In this document: positions 73 to 10,050 of the stretch, piece by piece
How the letters are laid out: every line of letters starts with the position of its first letter
How positions within the stretch are numbered: position 1 is the first letter of the stretch
Source of the DNA: Oscillospiraceae bacterium
Lineage (GTDB): Bacteria > Bacillota > Clostridia > Oscillospirales > Oscillospiraceae
Direction of reading: 5' to 3'
Assembly: GCA_021199595.1 (NCBI GenBank)
Contig: JAJQHT010000020.1
Span: 3,628 to 13,677, forward strand
DNA length: 10,050 nt
Notes under the pieces: generated by a model
What the model saw: only the letters and a program-made list of their open reading frames with translations
Databases searched by the model: none
What the model was told of the DNA's origin: nothing
Translations under genes and position numbers: made by a program

Positions 73-813
73 TTATTCCTCGCGCTCCAGACCGCGCCAT
101 TTCATCAGGGCGAGATATGTCTCTCTCGCGGAGGTCAGACGATCCCGGCCTATGGGGAGAACCTGGCCATTGTCCAGCAAAACGCTGCGGGAGGTAATTT
201 TCTGGATGTAACGGTAATTCACAGCGAAGCCCTTGTGGATGCGGATAAACCCCATGGGAATAAGCTGCTGCTCCAGCTCATGCAGGGAGGTGCGAATCAG
301 AAACGGCTCGTCCTCGTCCACAAGAAACAGCTTCTGGGTCTTGCCTGCGGCCTCGATATATAAGATGTCGTCCGGGCCGAAGGCGCGGTGAACGCCCTGC
401 GTGTTTTGCAGCACCACGCGGCCAACACGCTGGTGCAGGCTCTGGACATAGGCGTCCATGACGCCGGGCAGCTCCTGGGAGAAATGCGCCTTGCGGATGA
501 AGCTCCAGGGGTGGGCCTCAAAGACCTCATAGACCCGCTCCTCCATGTTGGAGACATAGATGATGTCGGCTGAGCAGTCCTGCTGCCGAAGAAGCCGGCC
601 AAGCAGAACGCCGTCCATGTCCGGCATATCGATGTCCAGGAAGATGAGCTGAACGCTCATGTGTCCCAGCGCTGTCAGCAACTCCCCGGCGGAGGCGGTG
701 GGCAGGATTTCCGCGTCTATCTGGAGGCTGCGGCATATTTGAGAAACCTCTCTCTCCATGACGGCGCGAAACGCCGGGTCGTCGTCGCACAGTGCGATTT
801 TAAAGCGGCTCAT
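73..813 (-). CDS. LytTR-family response regulator
   Basis: This 246-residue protein is a two-component response regulator with an N-terminal CheY-like receiver and a C-terminal LytTR DNA-binding domain, the AgrA/LytR/VirR architecture and usual length. In the receiver, the acidic pocket is Asp10-Asp11-Asp12, the phospho-acceptor is Asp60 in FLDIDMPDMDG, the switch Ser is Ser88 (YVSN) and the conserved Lys is Lys108. The LytTR part runs from about 135 to 240 and shows the family signatures ILYIEA, FIRIHKGFAVNYRYI and LPIGR. The ATG at 813 is preceded by GGAGGAGG, which lies in the last codons of the kinase gene; the kinase stop and this start overlap as ATGA, so translation is probably coupled. 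Such regulators bind pairs of direct repeats and usually activate. A matching repeat pair lies at 2278-2314 in front of the divergent secreted-protein genes, which I infer to be its targets. The family call is secure; the target is inference. Confidence 0.95.
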   Translation of the reverse strand: MSRFKIALCDDDPAFRAVMEREVSQICRSLQIDAEILPTASAGELLTALGHMSVQLIFLDIDMPDMDGVLLGRLLRQQDCSADIIYVSNMEERVYEVFEAHPWSFIRKAHFSQELPGVMDAYVQSLHQRVGRVVLQNTQGVHRAFGPDDILYIEAAGKTQKLFLVDEDEPFLIRTSLHELEQQLIPMGFIRIHKGFAVNYRYIQKITSRSVLLDNGQVLPIGRDRLTSARETYLALMKWRGLEREE

Positions 814-2141
814 GGTTCCTCCTCCATATACAGCATGGCGTCCGTGGTGAAGTAGCCCCCGTCTACGCGGAACGTGACGAAGCCGTCATATTTTTCCGCG
901 ATGCGGCGGATAATGGGGATGCCGAAGCCGTGGGCGGCGGGGTTTTTCTTGGTGGTGGTAAGGTTGCCCGCTGTCACATCCTCGGCCACGGGGTTTTTCA
1001 CAGAGATGAAAAGGCAGCCCTTTTCTGTGTGCAGCGTAGCCCGCACCTGGCTGCCCCCGGCCCGGACGCAGCCCTCCACGCTGTTGTCCAGCATATTGGA
1101 CAGCAGAGAGCAAAGGTCTTCGTCCGCAATGCCTATCCGCTCCGGCACGGCGGCTATCACGTCCAGCCTCACCCCGGCAGCCTTGGCGGCTGCGGCCTGA
1201 TGGGCAATGACGGAGGTAATGACCCCGTTCGGACAGCGAAATTCCTCCAACAGCGGCAGGCTTCGCCCGGCGAAATCCTTGAAATACTGCTGGAGCTGGT
1301 CATACTGTCCCTCGCGCAGGAAGGTCTCCATGACGGAAAAGTGGTTTTTCAGCTCATGCCGAAGGCTTTGATATTCGCGGTACAGCGCCTCTGTCCGCTG
1401 GTAAAACTCCTGATCCTGCTCAAATCTGGTCTGCATGGCGGCCATTTCCGAGGCCCGGCGGTGCTCCTTCACCAGCACATGATAGAGATAATATATCATG
1501 AGGTTCACCACAAAGAAGGCTGGCAGAATGATACTCAGAACGACGTCCTGCCCCAGAGAGAAGTTGCTGTGGCCGCTTAGTATGCGAACGGCGAACAGAC
1601 AGGCCACGGAGATGACGGCAATGACGAGCATGGAAAGCCAATAGGCCGCAGGCATCCGCGCCGACCCGTCCGGCCGAAAAAGAACGATGACCGCAAGTGC
1701 TGCCGCCAGCAGCAAAAACTGGCATATGTTCACCCAGGTCAGGGACATCAGCGGCATGAATATCAGAGAGCTGATGGACTGCGCCCAGTTTATCTCCGCT
1801 ACCACGGCGGAGGCCATGACTATTCGTATGTGCGCGGGCTGAGGGCTTAATACTGCGGCGAAGAGAATGATAAGTCCCGTCAACAGCAGATGCGTGGCAA
1901 CGCCTACGGCGGTGAAGCCGGATACCATGGGCAGCATAAAAGAATATGCCACCGCGCCCACAAGGCAGGTGCCAAGCATTTTTCCTGCCAGCCGCAAAAG
2001 CGCCTGCCGACCCAGACTGTCATAACCCAGAACCAGCGCCGCCAGTGCCAGCGGGATAAGAAAGCTCTGATAAAACGCGCCGGAAAACCAAAGGACGTTC
2101 GTCTGCAAGACGCGCCAGACTGTGGAAAGGTATACGGCCAC
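810..2141 (-). CDS. AgrC-like sensor histidine kinase (GHKL ATPase type)
   Basis: This 443-residue membrane kinase is the partner of the LytTR regulator. The N-terminal half (about residues 18-220) has six or seven hydrophobic segments, as in AgrC-type sensors. A linker rich in charged residues (about 223-258) leads to the phosphorylation site His262 in the motif LRHELKNH. The GHKL ATPase follows, with the N box LLSNMLDNSVEG (Asn349, Asn353) and the G box HGFGIPII (Gly405, Gly407). I start it at GTG 2141, because AAAGGGGG lies 7 bases upstream and a near-consensus promoter at 2173-2201 lies inside the longer TTG-started frame (to 2249), which has no ribosome site. The stop overlaps the regulator start by 4 bases. 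Its signal is unknown: no AgrD-like peptide or AgrB-like protease gene is present nearby, so it could sense a peptide encoded elsewhere, a small molecule or an envelope state. The GHKL assignment is firm; start choice is strong. Confidence 0.93.
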   Translation of the reverse strand: MAVYLSTVWRVLQTNVLWFSGAFYQSFLIPLALAALVLGYDSLGRQALLRLAGKMLGTCLVGAVAYSFMLPMVSGFTAVGVATHLLLTGLIILFAAVLSPQPAHIRIVMASAVVAEINWAQSISSLIFMPLMSLTWVNICQFLLLAAALAVIVLFRPDGSARMPAAYWLSMLVIAVISVACLFAVRILSGHSNFSLGQDVVLSIILPAFFVVNLMIYYLYHVLVKEHRRASEMAAMQTRFEQDQEFYQRTEALYREYQSLRHELKNHFSVMETFLREGQYDQLQQYFKDFAGRSLPLLEEFRCPNGVITSVIAHQAAAAKAAGVRLDVIAAVPERIGIADEDLCSLLSNMLDNSVEGCVRAGGSQVRATLHTEKGCLFISVKNPVAEDVTAGNLTTTKKNPAAHGFGIPIIRRIAEKYDGFVTFRVDGGYFTTDAMLYMEEEP

Positions 2142-2148
2142 GCGGCAT

Positions 2149-2156
2149 CCCCCTTT
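2149..2156 (-). promoter_or_regulatory. Ribosome binding site fixing the kinase GTG start
   Basis: On the minus strand AAAGGGGG stands 7 bases before GTG 2141. The TTG 108 bases further upstream that opens the same frame has no purine-rich site. An ATG directly after this site is in another frame. Confidence 0.75.
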
Positions 2157-2172
2157 TTGTTCATTAACAATA

Positions 2173-2201
2173 ATTATAACGAAAAACAATGTCCATGTAA
2201 A
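2173..2201 (-). promoter_or_regulatory. Promoter of the two-component operon
   Basis: Read on the minus strand, TTTACA (2196-2201, five of six matches to the -35 consensus), a 17-base spacer and a perfect TATAAT (2173-2178) form a housekeeping sigma-A-type promoter. Transcription should begin near 2166, giving a leader of about 25 bases with the ribosome site in it. The match suggests steady expression of the sensor pair without needing an activator; the direct repeats at 2278-2314 are some 77 bases upstream of its -35 box. Confidence 0.85.
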
Positions 2202-2277
2202 GTAGGAAAGGTGCGGTACAGGGGATAAAACGACCTTGTGATTCGTCAAAGTGAATAAAAAACCGGCGCGGCAGAGT

Positions 2278-2314
2278 GTGTTGTTTGTGCCGGATTTGTG
2301 TTGTTTGCGCCGGA
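2278..2314. promoter_or_regulatory. Direct-repeat operator, candidate LytTR binding site
   Basis: GTGTTGTTTGTGCCGGA (2278-2294) is repeated as GTGTTGTTTGCGCCGGA (2298-2314): 16 of 17 bases match, with a period of 20 bases, about two helical turns. LytTR regulators are known to bind two direct repeats about 21-22 bases apart on one face of the helix, upstream of the -35 box. Here the second repeat ends four bases before the -35 of the rightward promoter. The position in the divergent region next to a LytTR gene makes that regulator the obvious candidate. The binding assignment is inference. Confidence 0.7.
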
Positions 2315-2318
2315 ATGA

Positions 2319-2347
2319 TTGAATCCAAGAAGAAATTTTTGTAAAAT
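2319..2347 (+). promoter_or_regulatory. Promoter of the secreted-protein operon
   Basis: TTGAAT (2319-2324, four of six -35 matches), a 17-base spacer and TAAAAT (2342-2347, five of six -10 matches) point rightward to the hydrolase gene at 2406. The expected start of transcription is near 2354. The imperfect -35 box next to the repeats at 2278-2314 fits a promoter that depends on an activator. Confidence 0.65.
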
Positions 2348-2362
2348 AATTGTCACAATAGC

Positions 2363-2378
2363 GCAGCGTATCCGCTGC
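2363..2378 (+). other. Stem-loop in the leader of the hydrolase mRNA
   Basis: GCAGCG (2363-2368) and CGCTGC (2373-2378) form a perfect 6-bp stem with the four-base loop TATC, close to the predicted 5' end of the message and 14 bases before the ribosome site at 2391-2398. No U run follows, so it is not a terminator. It may shield the 5' end or influence translation; this role is a guess. Confidence 0.4.
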
Positions 2379-2405
2379 ACAGCAACCATGAAAGGGAGAA
2401 CGATT

Positions 2406-5400
2406 ATGAAGAAGCTTATCAGTCTGATGCTTTGTCTGTGCATGGCGCTGGCGCTTTGCGTGCCGGCAGCTGCCAGCGGAGAGGCATCTGCGGAAACGGC
2501 TCAGGCTGTGGATGAATATGCCGCGCTGAGCCTGGAGGGCGCTTCGTGGACGCTGGATGAGAGCGTTTCCGCCTGGTGCCTTACCGGCGTGACATACTGC
2601 CTTGAACCGGTGGCGGGCAAGGAGGTCATGAATATCTTTGTCCCCGCCGCCTATATGACGGAGGACGGCGAGCTTACCAGCGCGGTGGTCAACGGCTATA
2701 ACGCGCAGACCGCGCCCATCATCTATGTGGTGGACATGGGCGGCTATGCGGAGGCCAACGCTGTCAGCGCTTCGCGGGTGGCGGATTATCTGGCCGCCGG
2801 CTATGTGGTGGCGTCGCCAAGCACCCGCGGCAAGGCCACGACGGATGAGGACGGCAATTTTGTCGGCAAGGGCGCGGCCAGTCTGGCAGACCTGAAGGCC
2901 GGCGTGCGGTTTTTGAAGTATAACGACGATGTCCTCGCTGGTAGCGCGGAGATGATTGTTGTGACTGGCACCAGCGCCGGCGGGGCCATGTCCGCGCTGC
3001 TGGGAACCACCGGGAATAATGCCGCTTATGACGAGTATCTCGAGGAGATTGGCGCTATCATGACCGAGGGGGACGACGTTTACGCCTGCCAGTGCTATTG
3101 CCCCATTACTTCTATGGAATATCTTGATGAGGCGTATGAGTGGTATGTATACGGCCAGACCGAATATAACGGAACGGAGCTGACCGAGTTCCAGCAGCAG
3201 CTCAGTCTTGATCTCGCGGCGCTGTACCCCGACTATGTAAATTCCCTTGGCCTGGTGGATGGCGACGGCAACGCGCTCACACTCGACGGGCTGCGTGAGG
3301 GCAGCTATTACGACTATATCGTTGCGCTCCTGGGGGAGAGCCTGGCCGCTTATATTGAGGAAAACTATTCCACCACGGTTTCCGGCATGAGCTCTTATAC
3401 TTATATTGATGAGGAGGCGGCTCAGGCCTATATCGACGAGCTGAACGCGGACGGCGAGTGGGTGAGTATGGAGACCACCACAGCCTCCGTCAGCACCGGC
3501 CCCAGTACGATTGTGGAATATGTCTCCGGGGTGAGCTGCACCGTTGCCAGTCTGGATGATTTTGTGTCGGCCCTGTATCCGAGAGGGAAGAGCTGCCCGT
3601 CTACGGACGCGCTGGATTATTCAGGCGCGGCGAACCAGGTGTTCGGTACGGCGGATACAGACCTTGTTCATTATTCCACTGTCATTGCCAGCCTGCTGGA
3701 AGAGAACGACTACAGCGGGCTTGCGGGCTATGAGGAGGATTATGCGGCGAGCTATGCCGAGGCATATGACCATGAGGACACAGTGGCGCTGCTGAATCCC
3801 CTGAATTATTTGCAGGACAGCGACACAGCCGCCTATTTCCGCATCCGGGTCGGTACCGCCGATGAGCACGCTCCCGTGACCCAGAGCCTGAATCTGGCCC
3901 TGGCTCTGGAAACCTATACGGATGCCACGGTGAACTACGCGTTTGCTTGGGAGCAGCCCCATGGGGAGGCGGAGATAAACGCCAATGACCTCATGGACTG
4001 GATAGAGCGCATCTGCAAGTTTGAGGCGGAGAAGACTGACGACCGGATAGCCGAGCTGCTGAATCTGGACAATATGGAATACACCTGGAATCTCTCCGGC
4101 TCCGGGGACAGCGCGTATTATGTTCTATCGCCCATCGTAGAGGTGGCGAATCCTGAGCTTGCCGATTATCAGGGTCTGAGCGTGGCCATTCCCGCCTATT
4201 ACGTCAAGGGCGTGAATGAGGACGGCAGCCTGGAATTTGACTATGATTACGAATTTGAAAACCCCAACGGCGTGACCTATACAGCCGCCACGGCTCCCAT
4301 TATTGTAAATACCGGCGCGGCAGGCTATTCCGCCGGAACGACCAGTCAGGCCGGGGGCAGCTATGTGGCCTATGGTTATATTAATGTGGCCTGCGGCAAC
4401 CGGGGCAAGAGCCTTTCCGCGGTGAACGCCAGCGGTGAAAGCTACTACTGCGGCGACGCGCCCTATTGCCTGGTAGACCAGAAGGCGTGTGTGCGGTGGC
4501 TGAAATACAACATCGCCCTCGGAAACATCTGCGGCGACGCGGAGCGCATCGTGTCCACCGGCGGCTCCGGCGGCGGCGCACACAGCCTGATGCTGGCCGC
4601 TACGGGGAACAACCCGGACTTCTATCCTTATTTGGAGGAATCCGGCGCTATCATGCGCTATACGGACGAGAGCGGCAATGTGATTGAAATTTCTGACGCC
4701 ATCTGGGGCTGCTGCCCTTACAGCGCTATCACGAATCTGGAAGAGGCCAATATGGCCTATGAGTTTGAGAGCGGACTTGCCGCCGGGGATGCGCTGCTTT
4801 CCCGTTATTCCGAGTTCCGGCAGATACTGAGCCAGGGCGAGAGCGAGGAATATATGGCCTATATCAATGCCCTGGGCCTGACCTACGACATAGACGGCGA
4901 TGGGGAGCGGGAGACGCTTTCCATCGAATACGACAGCGAGACCGACACCTGGTCGGGCACCTATATCGAACTTATGGAACAGGTAGCGGAGGAGCAACTC
5001 GCCTGGTATGTGAACAATATTCCCGATGATGAATATGACTGGGTTTATTCCTTCGAGGGGGAGACCAACGGGGAAGCATATCTCCTGGGCGATTATGCCA
5101 GCTCCAGCGCCTCCGGCGAGGCCAGCAGCCAGACCGAGGGCTATGCCAGCGAATCCGACGGCACGGCCGGCGGCACAGGAAATGACCTGACCGACTGGGT
5201 CACCTACTGGTTCAATGAGGACGGGCAAATTGAGATTGACTTTGACATTGCCGATTTCATGACCTATCGCGGCCGCAGCAAGACGAACCCCTCCTTCGAC
5301 GACCTTGACCTCGGTCAGGCGGAGAATCAGGAGTTTGGCGATGAGGATCAGGACTTCAAGCACTGGGACATCCATGTGCTGAATGCCATGGACGAGTATT

Positions 5401-5777
5401 ATGACGAGCTGGCCGCCGCATACGACGGAGATGCTACGCTGTATGACAGCTTTGAGGAGCTGTATGAGGCGTATAAGGCCGATATTGAATCCACGCTGGC
5501 AGGGGATAAATACGGTCAGAACATCGTATACCTCTATAACCCCCTGAACTACATTCTTGACCCGGAGACGGAGCTGCCCGCCTGGGTGCATATTGTCCAC
5601 GGCACGGCGGACACAGACAGCAGCGTTCTTATCTCCATGAACGACGGCGTGGCCTTTGACATGATGGGTGTGAACAGCTATTTTGCCTGGAGCTGGGACG
5701 ACCACCATGTTGCCGGTGACCCGGTGGGAACCACCATGCAGGGCTATATTGACGCCATGGTGCTGGCCGGTTATTGA
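2406..5777 (+). CDS. Secreted tandem subtype-B tannase-like esterase
   Basis: This 1123-residue exported protein has two successive alpha/beta-hydrolase domains resembling subtype-B tannases (tannin acyl hydrolases, which split galloyl esters) and related feruloyl esterases. ATG 2406 is chosen because AAAGGGAG lies 7 bases upstream and the protein then opens with a signal peptide, predicted cut after Ala23 (VPAAA/SGEAS). Domain 1 (about 30-545) has the nucleophile Ser190 in GTSAGG, the family segment CYCPITSMEYLDEAYEW, candidate Asp486 (VGTADEH) and His519 (QPHGE). Domain 2 (about 560-1123) has Ser721 in GGSGGG, a matching CCPYSAITNLEEANMAYEF, Asp1069 or Asp1071 (HGTADTD) and His1100 or His1101 (DDHHVAGD). 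Both share an RGK segment and NPLNY. A Ser/Gly/Glu-rich linker (898-917) lies in the probable lid of domain 2. Known subtype-B enzymes have one such domain of roughly 470-500 residues, so the doubling is unusual. There is no LPXTG or lipobox. Substrate is not determined; another aromatic or acyl ester is possible. Confidence 0.85.
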   Translation: MKKLISLMLCLCMALALCVPAAASGEASAETAQAVDEYAALSLEGASWTLDESVSAWCLTGVTYCLEPVAGKEVMNIFVPAAYMTEDGELTSAVVNGYNAQTAPIIYVVDMGGYAEANAVSASRVADYLAAGYVVASPSTRGKATTDEDGNFVGKGAASLADLKAGVRFLKYNDDVLAGSAEMIVVTGTSAGGAMSALLGTTGNNAAYDEYLEEIGAIMTEGDDVYACQCYCPITSMEYLDEAYEWYVYGQTEYNGTELTEFQQQLSLDLAALYPDYVNSLGLVDGDGNALTLDGLREGSYYDYIVALLGESLAAYIEENYSTTVSGMSSYTYIDEEAAQAYIDELNADGEWVSMETTTASVSTGPSTIVEYVSGVSCTVASLDDFVSALYPRGKSCPSTDALDYSGAANQVFGTADTDLVHYSTVIASLLEENDYSGLAGYEEDYAASYAEAYDHEDTVALLNPLNYLQDSDTAAYFRIRVGTADEHAPVTQSLNLALALETYTDATVNYAFAWEQPHGEAEINANDLMDWIERICKFEAEKTDDRIAELLNLDNMEYTWNLSGSGDSAYYVLSPIVEVANPELADYQGLSVAIPAYYVKGVNEDGSLEFDYDYEFENPNGVTYTAATAPIIVNTGAAGYSAGTTSQAGGSYVAYGYINVACGNRGKSLSAVNASGESYYCGDAPYCLVDQKACVRWLKYNIALGNICGDAERIVSTGGSGGGAHSLMLAATGNNPDFYPYLEESGAIMRYTDESGNVIEISDAIWGCCPYSAITNLEEANMAYEFESGLAAGDALLSRYSEFRQILSQGESEEYMAYINALGLTYDIDGDGERETLSIEYDSETDTWSGTYIELMEQVAEEQLAWYVNNIPDDEYDWVYSFEGETNGEAYLLGDYASSSASGEASSQTEGYASESDGTAGGTGNDLTDWVTYWFNEDGQIEIDFDIADFMTYRGRSKTNPSFDDLDLGQAENQEFGDEDQDFKHWDIHVLNAMDEYYDELAAAYDGDATLYDSFEELYEAYKADIESTLAGDKYGQNIVYLYNPLNYILDPETELPAWVHIVHGTADTDSSVLISMNDGVAFDMMGVNSYFAWSWDDHHVAGDPVGTTMQGYIDAMVLAGY
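5098..5126 (+). repeat. SGEAS-coding linker shared with the neighbouring gene
   Basis: Within the hydrolase gene these 29 bases match 28 of 29 bases at 7977-8005, the C-terminal tail of the next gene, in the same reading frame. They encode the core ASSSASGEAS-type linker in the lid region of the second hydrolase domain. The long near-identity in genes that are otherwise unrelated suggests exchange of a short segment or a common source. Confidence 0.7.
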
Positions 5778-5808
5778 TAGCGGAACCGGCACACAATCCA
5801 TGAAATAT

Positions 5809-5838
5809 GCCGGGGCGCAGGCCCGTCCCGGCTATTTT
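5809..5838 (+). terminator. Possible weak intergenic terminator or processing hairpin
   Basis: GCCGGG (5809-5814) pairs with CCCGGC (5827-5832) around a 12-base loop, followed by TATTTT. A competing stem GGGC/GCCC (5813-5816 with 5821-5824) lies inside. It falls 31 bases after the hydrolase stop and before the next ribosome site. The U run is short, so partial termination or mRNA end protection, lowering output of the downstream genes relative to the hydrolase, is more likely than full termination. Confidence 0.4.
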
Positions 5839-5869
5839 AAAAAATTCGATTGAAAAGGAGCGTAAGGTA

Positions 5870-8044
5870 ATGAAGAAGCTATTGGCACTTATCCTTATGG
5901 TGTGCATGGTGCTTTCCCTCTGCACGGCGGCCTTCGCCAGCGGCGAAGCCTCCGGCGAGGCATCTGCGGAGAGCGAAACCGCCTATTACACCACGGAGGA
6001 CATGGAGCCGTCCAGCTATGCCTATCAGGTATCCGACACGGGCCGTCAGTCCAAGGACGCGGGCCACGTCTACATCGGCTACGACATAGAGGACGGCGAG
6101 CTGGTGGCGGAGGAATCCGCCTGGACGGAGGAGGACGCGGCGTCCTTCACCGCGGACGGGGAATACGACGCCGTCATCGACATGGACGTGGAGGTGGAGG
6201 GCGCCGGATTTACCTCCGTGCGTTCCACGGGGGACAGCACAGTGTACATTACCGGCGACTATTACATCCACGACGACATGGACGGCTATTACGCCTCCGA
6301 CTTCACCGGCACCGGCGTGTCCTTTATCTCCAACCTGGGCAGCCATATGGTCATTGAGGACGTGAATTTCACCTCCGAGGGCTTTGTGCGAGCCTTTGCC
6401 ATGTGCTATGGCACCAAGATGAGCATGAGCGGCTCCGCCGATGCGGTCTCCACGGTGCTGGACATCCGCAACTCCACCGTCACCACCTACGGCAAATATG
6501 CCTTTGACGCCTGGGAGGGCTATACCTCCAGCGCGGACACCTCCATCATGATCACCCCGCCCTATGTTCTGGGCATTTATGGCGGCATCCGCACCATTAA
6601 CGTCCTGGGTACCCGGTCTACCCTTATTATTGAGGGTTCCAGCCTGGCCTCCGGCGGGTGGGGCGTTCTGTCCTCCGACGGATGCGACACCCCCTATTTC
6701 TGGATCATTGACACCACCCTTTCCGCCATCCCGGAGAGCGAGGGCGGCATGAACAGCGGCTGGGCCATCTTAGGCTATGACGAGGACGCCTATGGTTCCG
6801 CGTATGGCTCCTATCTCATCGGCGACGCCCAGGAGTATTTCTACGGCGTGAACTTTGAGGGCCTGACCTACTGCTCCATCCTGACCGGCGGCGACGCCTT
6901 CATCGACAGCATCCACGCCGGTGACGAGATAGACCTGCTGGACGCCGCCACGGACGAGGTCATCCGCACCTATACGGCGGAGGAGGACGTCATCTCCCAT
7001 GTGAACACCGTGTTCGGCTGGATGGCCCACAACGAGGGCACCATCACCGTGGGCGACGTGGTCGTCACCCCGGCGGAATGTGTGTTCCTGTATAAGAGCG
7101 CGGACGTGGCCTTTACCCTGGACGGCACCACCGCCCAGCCCGGCAACGGCATCCTTCTGCAAATGATGGACAACGACGACAACGGCTTCTCCACTTATCA
7201 GACCGAGGCCGCCGGTGTTCAGACCGAGGCCGCCAGCATGAACGTGTCCTATGCCTTCACCACGGACACCGCCGTGCAGGAGGGCAAGACCTATTATGAG
7301 CGGGTGGACGAGGACACCTATGTGGAGGTGGAAAATCCCACCGACGAGGGTACTGTGGATTACTATGAAAAGACCTACAGCGGCAACAACGTGACCCTCG
7401 ACCTGATGAACAACGATTACGAGGGCGACATCTGGAACGCCACCGGCTATTACAGCGAAAACGGCGACGTGCTGACCGTCACCCTGACCGACGCCGCCCT
7501 GACGGGCCGCATCTGCCTTTCCACCGCGCCTCACGCCATCTCCCTGGAAGGTCGGGACGTGGAGGAGGTCATAGCCGCCATCGACGCGGCCAATGCCGAT
7601 AACGCCGCCATCGTCTATGGCGATTCCGACGGCCTTGACCCCATCGAGTATGAATTCCTGGATGCGGACGGCAACGTCTGTGAGCAGGAGGACGCCGCTT
7701 ATATCCACTTCACCAAGTGGAGCGTGAACCAGTATTATCTGCTGGGCCATGTGGAGAACTTCGTGAACGTGAACGGCGCGGCGAACATCAATGTCATCGT
7801 GTCTGAGGGCAGCACCTGGACTGTCACCGAGGAGAGCGTCATCAGCTATCTGAAGGCGGAGGGCGATGTCTACGGCACCCTGACGGAAAATGACGACGGC
7901 ACCATCACCCTGATGCCCGGCGACGAGCTGATCCCCGCCGGGGAATACGGCGTGCAGGCTGTGGTCGGCTCCGCCTCCAGCTCCAGCGCCTCCGGCGAAG
8001 CCAGCGGCGAGGCGTCTGGTGAGGCGTCCGGCGAAGCATCGTAA
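5870..8044 (+). CDS. Secreted beta-helix-like protein with SGEAS repeat tail
   Basis: I do not recognise a characterised function. The 724-residue protein starts at ATG 5870, 9 bases after AAGGAG. A signal peptide is predicted to be cut after Ala23 (AAFA/SGEASGEAS). Residues about 60-400 are rich in Gly, Ser, Thr, Asp and short alternating strands with recurring S-T-V and N-S-T turns, the look of a right-handed parallel beta-helix. A motif G239-x-R241 followed by GWGVLSSD (263-270) is also found in the next protein. Residues 465-501 carry an apparently inserted GKTYY...YYEK module. A late segment around Trp650 (GSTWTVTEES) matches GSVWTVSAES of the next protein. The end is four SGEA units plus a final Ser. 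No catalytic motif, LPXTG, lipobox or transmembrane tail is visible, so the mode of surface retention, if any, is unknown. The gene sits 92 bases after the hydrolase, probably in one operon. An adhesin, glycan-binding or scaffolding role is possible but unproven. Confidence 0.85.
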   Translation: MKKLLALILMVCMVLSLCTAAFASGEASGEASAESETAYYTTEDMEPSSYAYQVSDTGRQSKDAGHVYIGYDIEDGELVAEESAWTEEDAASFTADGEYDAVIDMDVEVEGAGFTSVRSTGDSTVYITGDYYIHDDMDGYYASDFTGTGVSFISNLGSHMVIEDVNFTSEGFVRAFAMCYGTKMSMSGSADAVSTVLDIRNSTVTTYGKYAFDAWEGYTSSADTSIMITPPYVLGIYGGIRTINVLGTRSTLIIEGSSLASGGWGVLSSDGCDTPYFWIIDTTLSAIPESEGGMNSGWAILGYDEDAYGSAYGSYLIGDAQEYFYGVNFEGLTYCSILTGGDAFIDSIHAGDEIDLLDAATDEVIRTYTAEEDVISHVNTVFGWMAHNEGTITVGDVVVTPAECVFLYKSADVAFTLDGTTAQPGNGILLQMMDNDDNGFSTYQTEAAGVQTEAASMNVSYAFTTDTAVQEGKTYYERVDEDTYVEVENPTDEGTVDYYEKTYSGNNVTLDLMNNDYEGDIWNATGYYSENGDVLTVTLTDAALTGRICLSTAPHAISLEGRDVEEVIAAIDAANADNAAIVYGDSDGLDPIEYEFLDADGNVCEQEDAAYIHFTKWSVNQYYLLGHVENFVNVNGAANINVIVSEGSTWTVTEESVISYLKAEGDVYGTLTENDDGTITLMPGDELIPAGEYGVQAVVGSASSSSASGEASGEASGEASGEAS
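7199..7234 (+). repeat. 15-bp direct repeat with 21-bp period
   Basis: CAGACCGAGGCCGCC occurs at 7199-7213 and again, unchanged, at 7220-7234, encoding Gln-Thr-Glu-Ala-Ala twice in frame. It lies just upstream of the GKTYY module (7262-7372), so it may be a small recent duplication at the edge of an inserted segment. Confidence 0.75.
7262..7372 (+). other. Inserted GKTYY-YYE module inside the beta-helix protein
   Basis: Residues 465-501 of the 724-aa protein read with the spacing D-T-x4-GKTYY, then Y-V-x-V-x-x-P, then D-YYEK. From memory, similar short modules recur in phage tail or capsid proteins and bacterial surface proteins of gut Firmicutes. No counterpart is seen at the equivalent place in the paralogue encoded at 8136-10050. 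The domain border and the family link are inference. Confidence 0.45.
7991..8041 (+). repeat. Fourfold SGEA peptide repeat at the C-terminus
   Basis: Four consecutive 12-base units each encode Ser-Gly-Glu-Ala, closed by a last Ser codon and the stop. The serines use tcc, agc, tct, tcc and tcg, and Gly, Glu and Ala codons also vary. Synonymous drift with a constant peptide suggests that the peptide, not just the DNA, has been kept. Confidence 0.9.
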
Positions 8045-8072
8045 GGAGAGCGTACGGCTTCCTCAATCGAGT

Positions 8073-8091
8073 CTTTTCCCGGCGGGGGAAG
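8073..8091 (+). other. Intergenic mRNA stem-loop
   Basis: CTTTTCCC (8073-8080) can pair with GGGGGAAG (8084-8091) across the three-base loop GGC, with two G-U pairs. It lies between the two beta-helix genes, is not followed directly by a U run, and so does not look like a terminator. The remaining intergenic sequence to 8123 is T-rich and leads into the ribosome site; I see no convincing separate promoter. Confidence 0.3.
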
Positions 8092-8135
8092 TCGCATTTA
8101 CTCAGTTTATCATTTCATTTTTTAGGAGGAATTAC

Positions 8136-10050
8136 ATGAAGAAGACACTATCTATTATCCTGGCCCTGGCGCTGGCGGTATGCCTGTGCGTGCCGGCCCT
8201 TGCCAGCGGGGAAGCCAGCGGCGAGGCGTCCGCCGTGGAGGCGGTCATCACCGTTACCGACGGCGCGGCCACTCTGAACGAGGATTACCTCGCGGAGCAT
8301 GAGATCGAAATGAGCTACGACGCCCTGGATGACTCCGGCGTGGACGGCCTGGTGCTGGATACCAGCGATATGCTGGTCTCTGCCGTGGCGGTCAGCGGGG
8401 ACGATTCCGTGTTCACCATCTCCAATGCGGAGATCCACCTGGGCGTGAACGAGGAGACCGCCTATGTGGCCAGCAGCACCACCGCGGGCAGCGGCGCACT
8501 GGTCAGCAGCGGCACCCTTTACATCACGGACAGCGCCATCACCGTGGACGGCGGGGCCAACGGCGCGGAGGGCGGTCACTATGCGGTGGAGGCCTACAGC
8601 ACCGGCACCCTGGTGGTGAACAACTCCTCCATGATCCAGACCGGGCGCGGCGGCGCGGACGGCCTGACCGATGAGAGCAACGAGCCCGGCTCCAACAACG
8701 GCCTGCTGATTGCCGGGTATGCCCGTTCCAGTATGTCCATCGGCGCGTCTCAGACCTATTATTATAACTCCTATGTGGAGACCGAGGGCTGGGCCGCCAT
8801 GTCCACCGACTCCGCCAGCGGTGGCGGTTTGGACTTCTATTCCTATAATTCTGAGGCCTATGCCGTCTCCGGCGGCTATGGCATTTACGCAGACTCCAGC
8901 TGCCGTGACTGGCTGTATGCCACCACCCTGCGGGGCGCGGAGCATGGTGTCATCATCTCCAATAACGGCGCTGTCCATGTATACAGCGGCGCTTCCGCCA
9001 CCGAGGAGGACGCGCTGGCCTATTACCCTGAGGATGGGGAGCTGACCGATGCCGGGAGCCTTATCGAGGCCGGGCGCAACTGCTTCTATATCCACTCTCC
9101 GGGTACCGGCTCCGCCTTCGGTCAGCAGGCGGTGGTGGAGGTCATGGATTCCACCCTCCGCACCTCTGAGGAGCTGAACGACCAGCAGACCCTGGTGGAT
9201 TACGCCGAGAAGTACAGCCAGGGCGTGGCGGATTATCTGGACTTCATCCGCGGCTCCATCATCCTTGTCAAGTCCCACTCTGCGGACATCGACCTGACCA
9301 ACGTGGAGATCGACAGCTATTCCAACACCATTCTTATGACCGCCCTGAACGCGGACAGCTCCAGCCGGTATCTCTATACCGACAAGGAGGACACCGCCAC
9401 CAGCCTGACCATGACCGACATGGACGTGACCGGCGACGTGAAGAACTACGACTATCAGCGCAATGTGGAGATCCTTCTGGACAACACAAGCTGGAACGGC
9501 GCGTCTCTTGTGTGGGATGCGGAGGACTGGAATGCCTATTGGGATTACGCGGAGGGCATGGACAGCGTCTACTGGTGCAGCCTGGACGCGGAGACCTATA
9601 ACGTGGCCCACCACGGCACCGCCCTGACCCTGGAAAACGGCTCCGTCTGGACAGTCAGCGCCGAGTCCCAGCTTGACAGCCTGACCATTAGCGCGGACAG
9701 CCAGGTCATCTATGGCACAGCCACCGTGGACGGCGAGGCCGTCACCCTGGAGGCCGGGCAGACCTACGAGGGCGAGATCGTCATCACCGCCGCCGAGGGC
9801 GCTTCCGATGAAGTCGCCGATGCCGCTGCCGACACCGGCGCGGCCAGCGTGGAGGAGGCTTATGTGGAGTATATCCATGAGTGGCTCCTGGCGGAGCTGG
9901 AGGTCAACTCTACCCTGACTGAGGATCAGGTGGAGAACGAATTCATGCCCCTCATCGAGGCGGGGGACTACACCACCTTCCCGGCAGAGATGCTTTATGG
10001 CGGAATGCTGAACTCCGGCGTTGCCATGACGTTTGAGGAGTTTGCTGCCC
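8136..10050 (+). CDS. Secreted beta-helix-like protein, 3' end outside window
   Basis: The frame stays open from ATG 8136 to the window edge (638 complete codons). AGGAGG at 8124-8129, six bases before the ATG, and a signal peptide predicted to be cut after Ala23 (VPALA/SGEASGEAS) fix the start. Residues about 30-550 have the short repeated strands with Gly, Ser, Asn and Asp turns expected of a right-handed parallel beta-helix, for example LYITDSAITVDGG and LVVNNSSMIQTG. Arg197 followed by GWAAMSTD (218-226) and GSVWTVSAES around Trp505 match the protein encoded at 5870-8044, so the two are paralogues. From about residue 572 the character changes to acidic, probably helical sequence (EYIHEWLLAELEV), perhaps a separate C-terminal domain that continues outside. 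No catalytic residues can be named. It is 91 bases after its paralogue and presumably belongs to the same operon. Function unknown; a surface or secreted binding protein is a reasonable guess. Confidence 0.85.
   Translation, partial: MKKTLSIILALALAVCLCVPALASGEASGEASAVEAVITVTDGAATLNEDYLAEHEIEMSYDALDDSGVDGLVLDTSDMLVSAVAVSGDDSVFTISNAEIHLGVNEETAYVASSTTAGSGALVSSGTLYITDSAITVDGGANGAEGGHYAVEAYSTGTLVVNNSSMIQTGRGGADGLTDESNEPGSNNGLLIAGYARSSMSIGASQTYYYNSYVETEGWAAMSTDSASGGGLDFYSYNSEAYAVSGGYGIYADSSCRDWLYATTLRGAEHGVIISNNGAVHVYSGASATEEDALAYYPEDGELTDAGSLIEAGRNCFYIHSPGTGSAFGQQAVVEVMDSTLRTSEELNDQQTLVDYAEKYSQGVADYLDFIRGSIILVKSHSADIDLTNVEIDSYSNTILMTALNADSSSRYLYTDKEDTATSLTMTDMDVTGDVKNYDYQRNVEILLDNTSWNGASLVWDAEDWNAYWDYAEGMDSVYWCSLDAETYNVAHHGTALTLENGSVWTVSAESQLDSLTISADSQVIYGTATVDGEAVTLEAGQTYEGEIVITAAEGASDEVADAAADTGAASVEEAYVEYIHEWLLAELEVNSTLTEDQVENEFMPLIEAGDYTTFPAEMLYGGMLNSGVAMTFEEFAA

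Follow-up and report, generated by a model that had tools for sequence, protein, structure and literature searches.

In the Bacteroidetes, the lipoprotein export signal (LES) is located just after the cut of lipoproteins. The animal secretory kinase Fam20C acts at S-x-E sites. We know of no post-cleavage tag of such a kind in gut Clostridia. The stretch of DNA analysed here (the window, 10,050 nucleotides from an Oscillospiraceae bacterium) contains three adjacent plus-strand genes, P1, P2 and P3, whose products appear to be exported and each begin their mature chain with the pentapeptide SGEAS. The same motif was found at this place on exported proteins of unrelated families in one group of genomes within a single genus. 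We put about even confidence in the view that SGEAS, whose core in mature N-termini is S-G-E-x-S-G, serves the exported proteome as a lineage-specific spacer that is disordered and acidic and lacks Lys and Arg.

The motif in the window

Genes and signal peptides were called by home-made rules and not by SignalP. P1 (2406..5777, 1,123 residues) has a signal peptide (2406..2474) that is predicted to be cleaved after Ala23, giving the N-terminus MKKLISLMLCLCMALALCVPAAA^SGEASAETAQA, where the caret marks the cut. The motif (AGC GGA GAG GCA TCT) occupies 2475..2489. P2 (5870..8044, 724 residues) reads ...CTAAFA^SGEASGEASAE and P3 (8136..10050, running past the contig end) reads ...CVPALA^SGEASGEASAV. 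The doubled motifs adjoin the cuts at 5939..5965 and 8205..8231. In all three proteins (3/3) A-x-A stands at residues 21-23 and SGEAS at residues 24-28, and the translation thus agrees with the initial annotation. It also bears out the further copies described there. One lies in a Ser-rich linker of P1 (residues 903-907, 5112..5126), and a (SGEA)4-S array lies flush with the stop of P2 (7991..8041). The P2 array holds four overlapping SGEAS, and its units are the same in protein but differ in codons. All ten SGEAS of the window are in frame within P1 to P3, and the other four frames have none.

Position of the motif on its carriers

Carriers were collected from all looser-pattern sites of the window's genome (G000), from all matches listed for two congeneric genomes (G004 and G015) and from 12 stretches among the matches listed for a third (G016). 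The four genomes supplied 71 complete carriers that have a signal peptide, with lipoproteins included and each orthologue counted on its own. The motif was at most 15 residues from the cut in 40 of them, where 3.9 would be expected at random. It was within the final 16 residues in 20 (3.4 expected). The corresponding counts for G004 alone were 15/25 near the cut and 8/25 at the C-terminus. The C-terminus is known for 94 carriers, of which 21 finish in SGEAS with no more than two residues beyond and 10 bear SGEA near both ends. More SGEAS copies are found in linkers preceding C-terminal modules.

The motif, or SSEASGEAS, directly follows the cut in beta-solenoids, tannases, a nitroreductase, a C26 peptidase, a 5'-nucleotidase-domain protein, a GDSL lipase (as SGEAG), a protein that has a signal peptide and, at its C-terminus, a membrane segment, and an unnamed 215-residue family. 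These eight families have no sequence relationship to one another. Common ancestry of one domain family is therefore ruled out as the cause, as had been argued from the window's three proteins.

The fetched loci gave 104 gene calls with SGEA. Type I signals were called in 66, lipoprotein signals in 12, and 12 more were without a 5' end. By inspection, 12 of the other 14 were taken for exported proteins, membrane proteins or fragments of either, among them a flavoprotein with a twin-arginine translocation (Tat) signal and a sensor kinase with the motif in its outer loop. The remaining two (L034 and L096) were not placed. The Tat-signal flavoprotein (L101:1068-2807, minus strand) terminates in ASASGEASGGAS, which shows that Sec substrates are not the only bearers of the C-terminal tag. 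A signal peptide followed by the tag is also present on the nitroreductase (L065:2768-3400) and the C26 peptidase (L061:2663-3781), both of them enzymes usually known from the cytoplasm. A Cthe_2159 carbohydrate-binding protein (L042) and a CotH-family protein (L099) possess the motif as well.

Tagged proteins are a minority among the exported ones, since SGEA was near the cut in only 2/16 signal-peptide genes of a systematic 228-kb sample of G004 (misplaced cuts corrected by eye). Anywhere in the protein, SGEA was present in 5/16 signal-peptide genes and 5/154 others of this sample. One of those five others is an exported tannase (L160) that the rule had missed. In 200 kb from each of two congeners that are poor in the motif (G002 and G043), no SGEA followed the cut in 11 and 13 signal-peptide genes, respectively. 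Acidic post-cleavage stretches were common in these two samples too.

Conservation

The homologues of P3 were sought with its domain alone, independently of the tag. From this search 30 loci were taken, of which all but L301 and L303 had a visible N-terminus. Inspection of these 28 placed S-G-E-x-S-G at +1 in 17/28 and the looser [ST]-x-E-x-S-G in 22/28. The remaining six comprise SDETVM (G016, SDETVMS), four orthologues with SEEFTD and the tag about 20 residues in, and TSDASG with the tag further in. Near-variants are common (SSEAS, SDEAS, SEEA, TGEAS and SGEPS).

An alignment was made that keeps 15 of the 28 rows. Those removed were five near-copies of the P3 group, all tagged, three members of the L295 group (TSEASG, TGEASG and TGEASG), three of the L304 group (SEEFTD), and L309 (TSDASG) and L310 (SSEASG), whose G004 orthologues were already aligned. 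S-G-E-x-S-G opens 12 of the rows, and nine of these are exactly SGEAS. Gly25 is found in 12/15, Ala27 in 11/15, Glu30 in 5/15 and Ala31 in 7/15, and all such counts include an L295-group member retained with Ser at +1, a different choice of which would make them one lower. Ser24 to Gly29 are kept but Glu30 and Ala31 are not, and thus the conserved core is the hexamer S-G-E-x-S-G.

Divergent homologues retain this core better than its surroundings. In 34 reciprocal-best pairs below 60% identity, which were partly selected by the motif and of which some are paralogous, positions +1 to +6 are 72% identical, compared with 37% at +7 to +25 and 40% in the remainder. Of the identical residues at +1 to +6 in those pairs, 52% differ in codon. 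The 19 pairs at 60-80% identity gave 74% at +1 to +6, 49% at +7 to +25 and 66% for the rest. The 77 pairs above 80% identity gave 94%, 92% and 95% beyond, with no special conservation of the tag. Within arrays of at least three SGEA units, silent differences were found in 69 of 108 codon comparisons. The conservation in divergent pairs together with silent codon change points to selection on the peptide but is not proof of it.

Distribution across genomes

A codon pattern for ASGEAS gave 33 matches in the window's genome, which is 65% complete, and its backwards control gave none. A looser pattern gave 70 matches against 13 in the control. Of 35 congeneric genomes, 10 have 19-48 matches of the ASGEAS pattern (rich genomes) and 25 have 0-2 (poor genomes). 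Eleven order-level genomes have 0 or 1 each. The genomes are metagenome-assembled and incomplete, and orthologues from them are not independent of each other.

The longer ASGEASGEA pattern was found only in G000 (nine matches) and G060 (one match) among 394 genomes sampled from the order, a sample that includes G000 and 42 genomes of other genera in its family. A scan for A-x-A-S-G-E-A-S-G-E-A in genomes of 84,980 species, from which records close to the window's genome may be omitted, gave 34 stretches. Eighteen of them are in records titled Oscillospiraceae, and six of these are at a signal-peptide cut, one of them recognized by eye and five by the rule. Among the 16 stretches from other records, none is flagged by the rule.

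An RpoB tree of 20 of the 35 genomes (9 rich and 11 poor; G000 had no RpoB match) separates rich from poor by one branch with support 100/99. Since this tree is unrooted, one gain and one loss would both fit. Each of the 10 rich genomes has 17-27 matches to the beta-solenoid family of P3, which is present in 0/25 poor genomes; among the protein families sought across the genus, it is the one that matches the rich set exactly. Tannase homologues were found in 10/10 rich and 3/25 poor genomes.

One group of tannase orthologues, here called tannase-3, spans both sets. Its mature proteins in rich genomes start with SGEASG (G034), SGEPSG (G033), AEED (G004 and G032 and, outside the rows counted below, G031) and DGAEG (G016). 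Those in three poor congeners (G002, G009 and G045) start with AEGGSD. The tag or a near form is thus present in 2/5 rich and 0/3 poor rows, which counts against a dedicated tag. In the poor orthologues the domain begins directly after the cut, so the tag seems to have been inserted behind the signal peptide and ahead of the domain.

Possible functions of the motif

If SGEAS is a spacer, it would be favourable just after the signal-peptidase cut, because Sec substrates avoid positive charge in the first part of the mature chain. An open, acidic and Lys/Arg-free early mature region would suit both Sec translocation and signal-peptidase cleavage. The spacer would also keep the ends of the chain and the joints between domains flexible and soluble, and without sites for trypsin in the gut. 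It could have been reused while the beta-solenoid surface-protein family of this clade expanded and then have spread to other exported enzymes. A dedicated recognition partner would be unnecessary. Lysine plus arginine make up 2.8% of the exported proteins in the G004 sample (L141-L160), compared with 5.5 and 5.9% in G002 and G043. This gap is absent in the tannase-3 orthologues and may reflect the protein sets sampled; trypsin avoidance was therefore rejected as a trend of the whole lineage.

Several results weigh against a spacer. The order of residues is the first of them. SGEAS occurs 33, 50, 48 and 15 times in the exported sets of G000, G004, G015 and G016, and none of the 59 other orders of its letters occurs more than 10 times; the commonest of these overlap tandem or neighbouring SGEAS. 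The loci were chosen for SGEA, so that first copies are biased and second copies less so. SGEAS was repeated at a distance above 50 residues within one protein 6, 7, 8 and 0 times in the same four genomes, and no other order was ever repeated in this way. A plain spacer should accept any order of small and acidic residues. The 15-row alignment also has Ser24 and Glu26 in 15/15 and Ser28 and Gly29 in 14/15 (one through the gapped alignment only). In addition, lysine plus arginine amount to 2.6-4.2% of tannase-3 in rich genomes and 3.6-3.9% in poor ones, and avoidance of trypsin sites is not clade-specific there. The fixed order S-G-E-x-S-G exceeds what a spacer needs, and some weight is therefore left to a modification site and a smaller part to a sorting signal. 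The count of 17/28 N-termini, next to 12/15 in the alignment, leaves this weighting unchanged.

SGExSG could be an acceptor site at which a clade-specific extracytoplasmic enzyme modifies the serines, by O-glycosylation or phosphorylation, and so marks or protects exported proteins. We regard this as rather unlikely. Its appeal is that the order of residues is fixed beyond composition, that Ser+1, Glu+3, Ser+5 and Gly+6 are conserved, that the carriers are mainly exported and have tandem arrays at their C-termini, and that S-x-E resembles the Fam20C site. A CotH kinase acting on S-x-E was considered on account of a CotH protein that ends in REASGEASR. This family, the sole kinase family examined, was found in 4/10 rich and 3/25 poor genomes, and five of the rich genomes that lack it are 94-97% complete. 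Its distribution rules it out as a general cause, and some orthologues dispense with the tag. In a wider form of the idea, SGExSG would belong to a protein-tagging system that is yet to be described. An enzyme or receptor specific to the clade would read the cut N-terminus and the C-terminal copies and then modify, anchor or assemble the carriers, in company with the beta-solenoid expansion and a helical C-terminal module that is described below. This, too, is a minor possibility.

Low-complexity drift, in which signal-peptide ends are copied and short tandem repeats slip without any function, is quite unlikely. The initial annotation held that scattered positions or free loss among relatives would leave drift as the explanation. 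Part of that was found, as the motif is also in linkers and C-termini and is absent from some orthologues; nevertheless, it is specific in position and sequence. Drift would fit the common near-variants, the tandem copies, the pairs above 80% identity, which keep the tag no better than the rest, and the two untagged congeners with other acidic post-cleavage sequences. It does not fit the excess identity of +1 to +6 in the 34 divergent pairs despite their codon differences. The +1 serine is encoded by AGC in some families or subfamilies and by TCN in others, which makes a single DNA segment copied about unlikely. As the sole cause, drift suits the copies at +1 less well than the looser ones in linkers.

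That the mature N-terminal SGExSG is an LES-like signal for sorting to, or assembly in, the wall or a surface structure is very unlikely: it directly follows the cut in unrelated families and the tagged clade coincides with the beta-solenoid family, but a strict N-terminal signal fails for the copies at C-termini, in mid-protein linkers and deep inside lipoproteins, few signal-peptide genes of the G004 sample are tagged near the cut, and sortase does not track the tag. The initial annotation had proposed a search for a co-occurring transpeptidase. Sortase matches are present in 34/35 congeners (32 above cut-off), rich and poor alike, and a sortase link was discarded.

The preferred reading remains a spacer. 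The distribution, which fits a single gain or loss within one genus, offers a natural comparison of close relatives with and without the tag. If the motif is only a spacer, it illustrates how uniform the linker "dialect" of a lineage can be and advises against taking repeats of this sort for sorting signals. Were an enzyme to read it, SGEAS would serve as a post-cleavage tag and offer a handle on the surface display of proteins such as tannases in gut Clostridia.

Tagged proteins and their C-terminal modules

P1 is a tandem tannase-like alpha/beta hydrolase. It passes the NCBIfam profile for subtype B tannase (NF041556) with 479.2 bits against a cut-off of 300. It scores 482.4 bits with the subtype A profile, which is below that cut-off of 550. 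Its best matches in the PDB are tannase chains (6yq4, E-value 7.2e-59). P2 has no Pfam family and no curated NCBIfam family above cut-off. It groups with P3 in clustering, that is, with the beta-solenoid family of the clade. For P3 there is a profile match to UpaB (E-value 3.6e-5). The tannase-like fold of P1 thus differs from the predicted beta-solenoid of P3, in keeping with the initial annotation.

The fold of P3 was predicted from its complete orthologue in G004 (639 residues, model built from 30 homologues, mean predicted local distance difference test (pLDDT) 82.7). The model has a right-handed beta-solenoid, recognized by a ladder of stacked short strands, and a small helical module that a linker joins to it at the C-terminus. 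Three stretches have pLDDT below 50, and two of these are residues 17-32 and the linker at 556-568. In Foldseek, the model had no match at an E-value of 0.001 or better. The weak matches were tailspikes and pertactin, and the best was 4ru4 (E-value 4.1e-3, template modelling score about 0.2). P1 to P3 are very poor in lysine and arginine, and P3 has one stretch of 196 residues with neither.

The helical C-terminal module has about 70 residues with the consensus ...EEAYxEYLHEWLxAE...ENEFMPLIEAGDYTTFPAEML...MTFEEF, and four helices are predicted. In P3 it is incomplete, with an approximate start, and is stopped by the contig end (9835..10050). Other copies are at L070:1783-2022 and, on the minus strand, at L080:1446-1685 and L062:6220-6459. 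In motif-rich genomes its carriers are beta-solenoids, short exported proteins and a C69 peptidase. A comparison with solved structures gave a single match (E-value 9.6). It is possibly a new attachment module. Two further common C-terminal tails are EIPADLEPGEEPPGGFGGID, on the C26 peptidase and other exported proteins, and DGLGDNPPDGLGGGSLGDPMK. These tails were found at L061, L035, L313, L023, L028, L089 and L051, and L313 has the same last residues as the first.

No LPXTG, lipobox or C-terminal membrane anchor was found on reading the sequences of P1 to P3, as stated before for these proteins, with P3 truncated by the contig end. P1 ends in ...YIDAMVLAGY and P2 in ...SGEASGEAS. The complete orthologues of P3 end in ...MTFEEFAAQY without an anchor, and none of these ends resembles an LPXTG-like sorting signal.

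Upstream of P1 there is a divergent pair of genes for a LytTR response regulator and a GHKL histidine kinase (73-2249, minus strand). Scans of 2200-8200 for promoters and terminators had no decisive result, and a PADLOC run found nothing.

Comparison with known systems

P1 is above the cut-off for subtype B tannases and differs from them in being tandem and acidic and in carrying the tag and linker motifs. Pertactin-like, UpaB-like and tailspike beta-solenoids belong to the fold class predicted for P3, and the 639-residue model has no autotransporter barrel. Every SGEAS holds the S-x-E of Fam20C-type phosphorylation and of the CotH spore-coat kinases, and its carriers are mainly exported, but CotH does not co-occur with it.

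Gram-positive surface proteins have O-glycosylated linkers that are rich in Ala, Ser and Thr or in serine. SGEAS is like these in being small, Ser-rich and disordered and in its placement at ends and between domains, judging from the low pLDDT in one model and from the positions of the copies. It differs in its fixed order of five to six residues with Glu. The likeness to the LES of the Bacteroidetes lies in a short acidic peptide that adjoins the signal-peptidase cut and is common to unrelated exported proteins of one lineage. The LES stands behind a lipidated Cys+1, whereas the window's proteins and the beta-solenoid family have A-x-A followed by Ser+1. The motif described here is found in Oscillospiraceae, mainly behind type I signal peptides and without Cys+1, and it is used at C-termini and in linkers as well.

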